Shown one piece after another: positions 7,990-38,227 of a DNA stretch of 45,071 nt. The translations under genes were made by a program, and so were the position numbers. Source of the stretch: an uncultured Bacilli bacterium (GTDB lineage: Bacteria > Bacillota_I > Bacilli_A > RFN20 > CAG-826); contig CALVUG010000005.1 of the NCBI GenBank assembly GCA_944363535.1, forward strand, positions 1-45,071, written 5' to 3'. Below the pieces are notes generated by a model. It was not told the DNA's origin, did no database searches, and worked only from the letters and a program-made list of their open reading frames with translations. The number at the start of each line of letters is the position of its first letter. Position 1 is the first letter of the stretch.

Positions 7990-9186
7990 TTACTGCTCAA
8001 CGTAAGGATGTGAAGCGATATATTTTTTAATCTCTTCGACCTTATCAAGTCTTTCCCAAGGCAGGTCTAATTCAAGATGGAAGAAGGCTGAATAATTCGA
8101 AGTATCGCGGTAAGAAAAAGATGGTTGATGTAAAGAGAAATTTTTGATGATGAGACCTGGTCTAGTTGGAAAGATATGACGCACTAAGCTAATGAGATAA
8201 TCATCGCTATAAGGTGAAGTCTTAAAAGTTTCGATCATCAAAGATAAAGCATCTTTTTGACCGATGACGTAAGATAATTCAATTTCAAGACGCTTCGCTA
8301 CTCCAGCAGCCACTAAGTTTTTAGCGATGTAACGAGCTAAATAAGCTGCACTTCGATCAACTTTTGATGGGTCTTTGCCGGAAAAAGAGCCACCACCGTG
8401 ACGAGCAAAGCCACCGTAAGTATCGACGATAATCTTTCTTCCAGTTAAGCCAGTATCGCCAAGTGGCCCACCTAGTACAAAGGAACCAGAAACGTTGATG
8501 TAAGGCGTAAAATCACGGTTTAGATGATATTTATCGATGATCGGATAAATAACTTCTTCTAACACGTATTTTTTAAAATGTTCATCCGCAGCATGGGGGT
8601 CGTGTTGGATGGACATGACGACGCTTATAACTTTAGGTTCTTTACCTTTTTCATATTGGACGCTTACTTCTGATTTCATATCAGGTCTTGCCCCTTTAAA
8701 GTCACCGCTTTTTCTTAGTTTCGAGGCTCTTTTCACTAATTCGATAGCAAGAAGATGCGCTAAAGGTAAATAAGCTTCCGTCTCATTGGTAGCGTAACCA
8801 AACATGATACCTTGATCACCTGCTCCTAAGTTTTCGATATTGATATCGTTAACGGCATCTGCGATTTCCTTCGATTGGGTGTGAATATGATTTTCGATGA
8901 TGACATCACGGTAATTTAATAAACCGACATCGTCACGATCGTAACCGATATCTTTGATGACTTCTTTAGCGATACTTTCATAATCGATGGTGATGTTTGG
9001 TTTACTAAAAGAAATCTCTCCTCCTAAAATCAAAAGCTTTTCAATGAACATACATTCGCACGCTACATGAGCGAGACTATCTTTAGCTAGACATGCATCT
9101 AAAATTGCATCTGCGATTTGATCGCACACCTTATCTGGATGCCCTTCTGCTACACATTCTGAAGTATAAATTTTTCTTTTTGCCAT
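7990..9186 (-). CDS. metK: S-adenosylmethionine synthase
   Basis: It makes S-adenosylmethionine from methionine and ATP in the cytoplasm, as a tetramer. Signatures are GHPDKVCDQIADAILD at 16-31 (ATP and metal binding), GAGDQGIMFGYA at about 121-132, and the glycine-rich loop GGGSFSGKDPSKVDRSAAY near 269-287. Length 398 aa is normal. ATG is preceded by AGGAGGG. It is monocistronic, and expression is controlled by the SAM-type riboswitch and terminator in its own leader (9213-9370), a feedback loop on its product. Confidence 0.97.
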   Translation of the reverse strand: MAKRKIYTSECVAEGHPDKVCDQIADAILDACLAKDSLAHVACECMFIEKLLILGGEISFSKPNITIDYESIAKEVIKDIGYDRDDVGLLNYRDVIIENHIHTQSKEIADAVNDINIENLGAGDQGIMFGYATNETEAYLPLAHLLAIELVKRASKLRKSGDFKGARPDMKSEVSVQYEKGKEPKVISVVMSIQHDPHAADEHFKKYVLEEVIYPIIDKYHLNRDFTPYINVSGSFVLGGPLGDTGLTGRKIIVDTYGGFARHGGGSFSGKDPSKVDRSAAYLARYIAKNLVAAGVAKRLEIELSYVIGQKDALSLMIETFKTSPYSDDYLISLVRHIFPTRPGLIIKNFSLHQPSFSYRDTSNYSAFFHLELDLPWERLDKVEEIKKYIASHPYVEQ

Positions 9187-9212
9187 CTTCTTTTTCCCTC
9201 CTATATATGAAT

Positions 9213-9238
9213 AAAGGCTTCCTCAATGAGAGAAAGCC
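9213..9238 (-). terminator. riboswitch-controlled attenuator hairpin before metK
   Basis: On the minus strand GGCTTTCTC (9238-9230), loop TCATT, GAGGAAGCC (9224-9216), followed by TTTATT. Its 5' arm and loop contain CTCTCAT (9232-9226), complementary to ATGAGAG (9269-9263), which includes the 3' strand of riboswitch helix P1. The two structures are therefore mutually exclusive. Confidence 0.8.
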
Positions 9239-9264
9239 CATAATTTATTTTTTAATTTGTTCCT

Positions 9265-9370
9265 CTCATCGTCATCTGAGGCGAGCACTTACTAATCGGA
9301 TTTCATTAGAGTTGCTACTATCTTTTTAAGCCTCGAAAGATAGTTCTTGATGAGGCAAACTTGCGTTTGC
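9265..9370 (-). promoter_or_regulatory. SAM-I/IV-clan riboswitch in the metK leader
   Basis: On the minus strand: a GCAAAC-GCAA-GTTTGC hairpin (9370-9355), P1 5' strand CTCATC (9354-9349) running into the clan motif ATCAAGA, a simple P2 hairpin with a 9-bp stem ACTATCTTT/AAAGATAGT, the core AGCAAC, P3 CTAAT/ATTAG, then AAGTGC, and P1 3' strand GATGAG (9270-9265). GAGGC in the P2 loop (9334-9330) can pair with GCCTC (9282-9278) as the family pseudoknot. The AUCAAGA / GCAAC / GUGC core is that of the SAM-I clan. The unbranched P2 and absence of P4 are more like SAM-IV or SAM-I/IV variants. With SAM bound, P1 forms and the terminator at 9213-9238 shuts off metK. Confidence 0.82.
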
Positions 9371-9379
9371 TTATTTATA

Positions 9380-9407
9380 ATTATGCTTATTTAGAAAAAT
9401 TTATCAA
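9380..9407 (-). promoter_or_regulatory. predicted promoter of metK
   Basis: TTGATA (9407-9402), 16 nt, CATAAT (9385-9380). Transcription would begin near 9373, just before the first leader hairpin. The promoter lies right behind the stop of pduL. Confidence 0.6.
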
Positions 9408-9410
9408 TAT

Positions 9411-9983
9411 TTATTTGATAAGTTCACCATAAACTTCACCACTTAAGTGCGCGGCATTAGCTTCGTCGGTGTCGATATGCATCGCTAAAGCGAACTTTTC
9501 GCTCACGCGGATGACGACATCATCATAAATTAAAGAACGATCAGCACTTGTGACTTTAACCTTGACGACATCGCGGTCCTTAACGCCATATTCTTCCGCA
9601 TCTTTTGGCGTCATATGGATATGTCTTTTGGCGACGATGACACCATTTTCTAAAGTGACGCTACCGGCTGGACCAACTAAAGTGATACCAGGAGTATTAT
9701 CGGTATCACCGCTTAATCTAACTGGAACGTTAGAAAGGCCTAAAGTCCTCGCATCCGTCAAAGAAATTTCCACTTGGTTACGACTTCTTACTGGTCCTAA
9801 GATACTCACGCCTGAAATCGTTTTCTTTGGTCCGACTAAATCAAGTCTTACATCACTTGCGAATTGACCAGGTTGAGAAAGCATCTTTTTGACGCCTAAT
9901 TCATCTTTACCAGTTAAAATTTTTAAGGTTTCTAAGGTGACATGTACATGTCTTGCACTTGTTTCAACTAAAATTTTATTCAT
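9411..9983 (-). CDS. pduL: PduL-type phosphate acyltransferase (phosphotransacetylase)
   Basis: It interconverts acyl-CoA (acetyl- or propionyl-CoA) and acyl phosphate. The protein has the two PduL repeats, each with its zinc-binding histidines: ARHVHVT at 10-16 and KRHIHMTP near 119-126, plus SDVRLDLVGPKK and the C-terminal MHIDTDEANAA. Length 190 aa is that of the cytosolic form: there is no N-terminal extension that would target it to a microcompartment, and no compartment genes are nearby. It most likely serves acetate production with an acetate kinase located elsewhere. ATG is preceded by GAAGGGAGA. It has its own promoter. Confidence 0.92.
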   Translation of the reverse strand: MNKILVETSARHVHVTLETLKILTGKDELGVKKMLSQPGQFASDVRLDLVGPKKTISGVSILGPVRSRNQVEISLTDARTLGLSNVPVRLSGDTDNTPGITLVGPAGSVTLENGVIVAKRHIHMTPKDAEEYGVKDRDVVKVKVTSADRSLIYDDVVIRVSEKFALAMHIDTDEANAAHLSGEVYGELIK

Positions 9984-37873: not shown

Positions 37874-38227
37874 ATGAATTTCACTTTGAAAAGATTAATC
37901 TCATCGATCATTTCCTTCTTCGTCGCTCTAGGAGTAGGAATTGCTATCTTTTTCATCGTTAGAGCGTTCCAAGATGAAAATTATGTTTTAGAAACGCCAA
38001 CGCAATTAAGTTATGACTTAGAAAGTCAAACCCTCACTTGGTTAGAAGTTGAACACGCTGACGCCTACATCGTAAAGATCGATGAATCAATCACCGAACA
38101 AGTTAATGAAAATTATCTACATTACGAAATAGAAAAAACGACCGCTTTCGTCGTCCAGGCCATCGACACATCAAATACCTATGAGCCGAGTGCTAATTCG
38201 GTCGCTTTAATCGTGACAATCAATTAA
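37874..38227 (+). CDS. membrane-anchored small extracellular protein (117 aa)
   Basis: The N-terminal membrane anchor (about residues 8-29, ISSIISFFVALGVGIAIFFIV) is followed by a single beta-rich extracellular domain of about 80 residues (TPTQLSYDLESQTLTWLEVE, ADAYIVKIDE, TAFVVQAID) that looks like a fibronectin type III-like fold. No catalytic motif. The TTG at 37838 belongs to the -35 box; the ATG at 37874 is chosen. It overlaps glyA on the other strand by 4 bases at the 3' end. The function is unknown. Confidence 0.7.
   Translation: MNFTLKRLISSIISFFVALGVGIAIFFIVRAFQDENYVLETPTQLSYDLESQTLTWLEVEHADAYIVKIDESITEQVNENYLHYEIEKTTAFVVQAIDTSNTYEPSANSVALIVTIN

Follow-up and report, generated by a model that had tools for sequence, protein, structure and literature searches.

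Riboswitches of the SAM-I/IV class keep the P4 helix and have a pseudoknot between the P3 loop and the 3' tail. SAM-I/IV variants without an internal loop in P2 are known (PMC2864571). For SAM-I itself (the S box, RF00162), the residues that contact or frame SAM have been listed (PMC3764141), and the k-turn has been described as an essential part of the RNA (PMC3651934). SAM-I variants can also change their ligand, as demonstrated by a spermidine class (PMC10853860). No description of a P4-less SAM-I RNA, or of the lineage considered here, was found in the open-access literature, subscription papers being outside that search.

The window, i.e., the whole analyzed stretch of 45,071 nucleotides from an uncultured member of the Bacilli, contains a metK leader at positions 9370-9213 of the minus strand, between a pduL-type gene and metK. 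It is highly likely that this leader descends from SAM-I and acts as an OFF riboswitch for SAM, regulating metK through transcription termination. The features of the locus are given below; unless another basis is stated in brackets, they were read from the sequence.

9411-9983, minus strand, pduL-type phosphate propanoyltransferase gene, the upstream same-strand neighbor of metK (Pfam PF06130, E 8.5e-74)
9402-9407, minus strand, -35-like TTGATA (promoter scan 10/12, 16-nt spacer)
9380-9385, minus strand, -10-like CATAAT (promoter scan; same in G001 and G002, CATATT in G003)
9355-9370, minus strand, P0, 5' hairpin GCAAAC-GCAA-GUUUGC, abutting P1 (sequence; predicted in 4/4 congeners)
9263-9356, minus strand, aptamer, extent matched by the hold-out covariance model R2 (53.2 bits, E 6.4e-10)
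9349-9354, minus strand, P1 5' strand CUCAUC (sequence; P1 covaries among relatives)
9344-9348, minus strand, J1/2 AAGAA with the G11 and A12 equivalents at 9346 and 9345 (own alignment to SAM-I numbering; residue list from PMC3764141)
9318-9343, minus strand, P2, 8 bp (9343-9336/9325-9318), without k-turn or internal loop
9330-9334, minus strand, pseudoknot 5' strand GAGGC, in the P2 loop (covariation: GAGGU in G003)
9285-9315, minus strand, J2/3 and P3, GCAAC...GUAAGUGC, with UA bulge (sequence; invariant or covarying in relatives)
9278-9282, minus strand, pseudoknot 3' strand GCCUC, after P3 (covariation: ACCUC in G003)
9271-9277, minus strand, 7-nt linker AGAUGAC where relatives have P4 (AAGTGC-to-GAT spacing)
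9265-9270, minus strand, P1 3' strand (P1') GAUGAG, common to the antiterminator
9260-9270, minus strand, predicted antiterminator 5' strand GAUGAGAGGAA, overlapping the P1 3' strand (folding and shuffle test)
9225-9235, minus strand, predicted antiterminator 3' strand UUUCUCUCAUU, overlapping the terminator 5' arm (folding and shuffle test)
9215-9239, minus strand, predicted intrinsic terminator, 10-bp stem followed by UUAUUC (-15.5 kcal/mol)
9196-9202, minus strand, Shine-Dalgarno sequence AGGAGGG of metK, outside both alternative folds
7990-9186, minus strand, metK, S-adenosylmethionine synthetase of 398 aa, the putatively controlled gene (Pfam PF00438, PF02772, and PF02773, all above cut-off)

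Promoter-scan matches of the TTGATA-16-CATAAT kind are no more frequent than in shuffled sequences; TTGATA is also present upstream in L002 and L003. The leader is stably folded, with a z-score of -4.2 and none of 200 shuffles equally stable. The core motifs ATCAAGA, AGCAAC, and AAGTGC named in the preliminary description of this DNA were all found, at 9351-9345, 9316-9311, and 9290-9285 of the directly read minus strand, and so was its extra 5' GCAA-tetraloop hairpin, read at 9370-9355. The P2 strands are CUAUCUUU/AAAGAUAG in the window versus CCGCUC/GAGCGG in the congener G003, and the 10-nt P2 loop contains GAGGC. Pairing of this loop of an unbranched P2 with GCCTC, proposed previously, was borne out, since the pairs covary both in the genus, where GAGGC/GCCUC changes to GAGGU/ACCUC, and across relatives, where all five of them do. 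By length alone, the 5-bp pseudoknot is not significant (254 of 4,000 shuffles match it). The absence of P4 had also been recognized correctly, as only AGATGAC (9277-9271) separates the pseudoknot strand from P1'.

Rfam 15 scans (window at the gathering cut-offs; 901 nt and 121 nt at E ≤ 10) gave zero matches to SAM-clan families, RF00162, RF00634, and RF01725 included, and a genome-wide RF00162 search with laxer filters returned only a 13-bit match located elsewhere than the metK leader; the gathering cut-off of RF00162 is 44.4 bits. Therefore, by score the window RNA is not a member of SAM-I, SAM-IV, or SAM-I/IV. The preliminary description had named two observations on relatives and Rfam models that would speak against its SAM-clan reading: the missing score with all three families was indeed found, while the second, a lack of covariation in relatives, is contradicted by the clear covariation in the alignments. 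In the window's family, RF00162 matched 2 of 46 metK leaders, one of them above the cut-off, and left 44 unreported; in sister families of the order, it reported 10 of 12 metK leaders, nine above the cut-off and up to 65.3 bits (both scans used stricter, fast filters, with which some weak matches may be lost). The same metK leader thus passes the RF00162 cut-off in sister families, which points to SAM-I descent, and on this evidence the window RNA belongs to a SAM-I lineage that has diverged beyond the reach of the Rfam model, and does not represent a new class. The initial idea of a wholly new riboswitch class was dropped, as the sister-family metK leaders score 50-65 bits with RF00162. The P2 without an internal loop, as in SAM-I/IV (PMC2864571), would also suit convergence of an unrelated RNA on the SAM-I core, or a closer kinship with SAM-IV or SAM-I/IV than with SAM-I, but such an origin is extremely improbable given the same SAM-I scores of these orthologous leaders. 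Moreover, across 95 relatives RF01725 reported no metK leader of the window's family, and RF00634 gave no credible or genuine SAM-IV match, including none at the family's metK leaders, while RF00162 fits the intermediate metK leaders better than RF00634 or RF01725 does. The earlier statement that the RNA fits neither canonical SAM-I nor SAM-IV was right by score and by anatomy, and is refined here to a form derived from SAM-I by ancestry.

Of 144 related genomes, 139 yielded a MetK, and the same RNA is present in nearly all leaders read. The alignment of related metK leaders suggested in the preliminary description was made twice, first with 40 and then with 27 diverse relatives, and revealed strong covariation, including the pseudoknot. 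Changes on both sides were observed for 23 of 27 pairs in the wider, 40-sequence set and for 22 of 30 in the 27-sequence set, and 92%–96% of positions paired versus 36%–44% with the partners slid. Model R2, built from the 27 sequences with no member of the window's genus among them, scored the window at 53.2 bits (E 6e-10), L002 at 58.1, L003 at 54.1, and L004 at 45.9. It found matches in 140 of 196 genomes of the window's order, with about one RNA per genome, and all 78 matches with metK coordinates are located 54–100 nt upstream of metK on the same strand. R2 recognizes the window RNA as well as the metK leaders of the sister families, where 9 of 12 score above the RF00162 cut-off; by eye, some sister leaders (e.g., L208) retain P2b and a GATGA-type k-turn remnant, and others (e.g., L203) do not. 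Matches in other Bacilli families are also metK leaders with canonical GGUGC cores. Leaders of this kind from f20, f11, and other families (L183-L200) scored 29–52 bits with model R1, and several of them combine canonical GGUGC SAM-I cores with very short P4 hairpins, e.g., GGGGAAACC. Second R1 matches at window position 37898 (13.7 bits), at C1:89784 of the genome (19 bits), and on C3 (13 bits) were dismissed as noise. A motif pattern scan of GTDB genomes yielded at least 119 stretches with the motif. Taxon names among the matches listed were Bacilli, Bacillales, Erysipelotrichaceae/Erysipelotrichia, Mollicutes, Coprobacillus, Bacillota/Firmicutes, or a Candidatus genus, the remainder being named only as uncultured bacteria; two of the three Candidatus genera among the matches listed were looked up, and both belong to Bacilli.

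Equivalents of the SAM-I residues A6, U7, G11, A12, G43, C44, A45, C47, G56, U57, G58, C59, A87, and U88 are all present in the window, the numbering of single window bases being that of our own alignment. In SAM-I terms, G43-C59, C44-G58, A45/A46 against U57, and C47-G56 are kept (the C44, A45, U57, and G58 equivalents are 9314, 9313, 9287, and 9286), C48-G55 has U-A in its place, a compensated exchange, and UA forms the two-base bulge. All four k-turn residues (G19, A20, G35, and A36) are absent, and so is A61. Taken together, the pocket residues, the gene, and the descent suggest SAM as the ligand. Since the k-turn, called essential for SAM-I (PMC3651934), and P4 are missing, the affinity could be low. 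Retention of the aptamer fold with a different ligand, such as SAH, spermidine, or another SAM-related compound, has a precedent in the rare SAM-I variants that bind spermidine, one tested construct of which precedes a metK (PMC10853860), and the window does depart from SAM-I in having AAGUGC for AAGGUGC and in lacking A61. A changed ligand is nevertheless very unlikely, because the spermidine class alters the SAM-touching nucleotides of J1/2 and the P3 internal loop and the window keeps all listed contacts, a change of CC to CU in P3 compensates for that of GG to AG, and metK is the gene in all 78 cases.

The terminator ends 28 nt before the metK start. The preliminary description had paired ATGAGAG (9269-9263) with CTCTCAT (9232-9226), and these positions are exact; the complementarity extends to 11 bp (9270-9260/9235-9225). 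Across four species, the P1 3' strand and its flank are able to pair with the terminator 5' arm over 9–11 contiguous positions. Shuffled sequences matched this antiterminator length in 2 of 4,000 cases for the window, 0 of 4,000 for G002, and 58 and 181 of 4,000 for the other two congeners. For the full leader of three congeners, RNAfold predicted P0, P1, P2, P3, and the terminator; for that of the window, it predicted P0, P1, the terminator, and a variant inner fold. With the RNA cut just before the terminator 3' arm, the antiterminator was predicted in all four species. In G003, its sequence is altered with the pairing kept. The evidence supports the earlier view that a SAM-clan aptamer, complete with an antiterminator/terminator switch, stands before metK.

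RNA polymerase would start just upstream of P0, and transcribe P0 and then the aptamer. SAM bound between P1 and P3 would keep P1 (CUCAUC/GAUGAG) closed, and the P2-loop/J3 pseudoknot would pack P2 against P3, presumably compensating for the k-turn and P4. With P1 closed, the terminator arms could pair, and transcription would stop, presumably efficiently, ahead of metK. Without SAM, the P1' segment could pair with the terminator 5' arm as the antiterminator, and metK would be read. The OFF sign is deduced from this arrangement of helices. The U-tract after the window terminator (UUUAUUC) is short and interrupted, as expected if the hairpin before metK were an inefficient terminator and control acted through translation or RNA stability. 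This is quite unlikely, as the Shine-Dalgarno sequence lies downstream of both folds and is paired in neither, and the U-tract is strong in G003 (UUUUCUUUAUUUU) and in most relatives. Control by transcription termination remains the preferred reading.

The k-turn is lost throughout the window's family. The distance from AAGUGC to P1' (GAT) is 13–14 nt in all four species of the window's genus versus 23–41 nt in the 107 other correctly parsed metK leaders, nearly all of which have a clear P4 hairpin; by this spacing, only the window's genus has lost P4 (4/4 species). L082, which had looked like another P4-less leader, proved to be a wrong parse of P1, its hairpin lying further downstream. In the MetK tree, the four congeners form one clade on a long branch (support 100), and their sister group consists of L020, L022, and L049 (support 87), in which P4 is retained. 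P3 of the genus is 16 nt versus a median of 10, and 7 of 108 others reach 15. The P3 loop AAAUCC is invariant in the genus (9304-9297 in the window, at the same place in L002-L004), though the P3 stem changes. UCC of this loop could form only 3–4 bp with GGA right after P1, which also serves the antiterminator, and a SAM-IV-type pseudoknot between the P3 loop and the 3' tail is not claimed on 3–4 bp. The loss of the k-turn and P4 together with the Rfam score would be compatible with a decayed, non-functional SAM-I relic. However, G003 differs from the other three congeners in P2, P3, the pseudoknot, and the antiterminator, yet its helices remain paired, which argues against decay, and the hold-out model R2 still scores all four congeners; decay is thus highly improbable. 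The RNA is real and SAM-I-derived, and it is very probably functional.

Among L001-L149, 107 metK leaders have a recognizable terminator, L001-L004 of the window's genus included. In 79 of these 107, the apical loop of P4 and the 3' arm of the terminator are complementary by at least five Watson-Crick pairs, the typical partners being UCCCACA and UGUGGGA. At least six pairs were found in 58 leaders; shuffling the loops gave 5.5 (maximum 14), and exchanging them between species gave 18.7 (maximum 30). The P4 loop may therefore hold the terminator 3' arm in the ON state in most of the family. In the 28 leaders without such pairing, including those of the window's genus, P1'-terminator pairing is stronger (-10.2 versus -7.9 kcal/mol, raw p 8e-5). 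The trait changed at least seven times on supported branches of the MetK tree, and with phylogeny counted the trade-off between P4-loop and P1' pairing is reduced to seven independent pairs, and these give no significance in the sign test (median p 0.5), so an inverse relation of the two antiterminators is put forward as a suggestion. Neither the window's genus nor its sister clade has the P4-loop pairing, and both rely on the classic antiterminator built from P1', which may be the reason that P4 was free to disappear; the P4-loop pairing would have been dropped in the clade of the window's genus before P4 itself. In the broadest reading, the metK-leader RNAs of this gut Bacilli family would be a k-turn-less SAM-I subclass whose P4 loop also serves within the expression platform by pairing with the terminator 3' arm in most members, and the window's clade would have come to rely on P1' only and then lost P4, leaving a k-turn-less, P4-less aptamer of about 90 nt that still binds SAM. 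We regard this full scenario as evenly poised between right and wrong. If functional, the pairing of the P4 loop with the terminator is a second means of coupling a SAM-I aptamer to termination.

A second SAM-I-like RNA, without P4 and with a k-turn, was observed in the same order (L217-L236 and L238-L267, with L223 and L267 in G002 of the window's genus). Its motif is CCAUAAAGAG...GGGACAAGCCC...GCAACC...GGUGCUAAAGCUUG...GAUGG. Most copies score 34–62 bits with RF00162, and model R3 matches it in 60 of 196 genomes. A few copies precede metK, but most stand before unrelated genes, encoding FGase-like and Sel1 proteins, a MoxR-type ATPase, PduL, an apparent iron-sulfur protein, and small proteins of about 90 aa. 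This RNA also stands before the genes of two divergent MetK-like proteins, both about 350 aa long, at L236 (G054) and L256 (G073).

The lineage exhibits a stepwise loss of parts from a much-studied riboswitch, the k-turn family-wide and P4 in one genus, with the pocket fixed. Its members are natural test pieces for telling the scaffold from the sensor parts of SAM-I. The current Rfam SAM models mostly miss the regulation of metK in a large group of uncultured Bacilli from the gut, and a new seed would be an easy repair. The RNA introduces no new principle; it is a naturally minimized version of a model riboswitch.

Compared with known systems, the window RNA shares with SAM-IV (RF00634) the common core of the SAM-I clan, but that model has no match in the window and no credible one in the 95 relatives. 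It resembles SAM-I/IV (RF01725) in a P2 without internal loop (PMC2864571); however, this model gives no match in the window either, and at the site of the SAM-I/IV pseudoknot between the P3 loop and the 3' tail only 3–4 bases (UCC/GGA) are complementary. The spermidine riboswitch (PMC10853860) is likewise SAM-I-derived and an OFF switch acting by termination, a sign presumed for the window, but that class has an altered pocket and polyamine genes, while the window pocket is intact and the gene is metK. The differences from SAM-I (RF00162) are the missing Rfam match, the absence of the k-turn, P2b, A61, and P4, the 5-bp pseudoknot located directly in the P2 loop, the extra 5' hairpin, and CU/AG instead of CC/GG at the base of P3. 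Common to both are the P1-P2-P3 order, J1/2 AAGA, the GCAAC...GUGC core, the asymmetric P3 bulge, the pseudoknot from the P2 loop to J3, the likely control of metK, and the antiterminator built from P1' and the terminator, a design that corresponds to the classic OFF logic of the S box.
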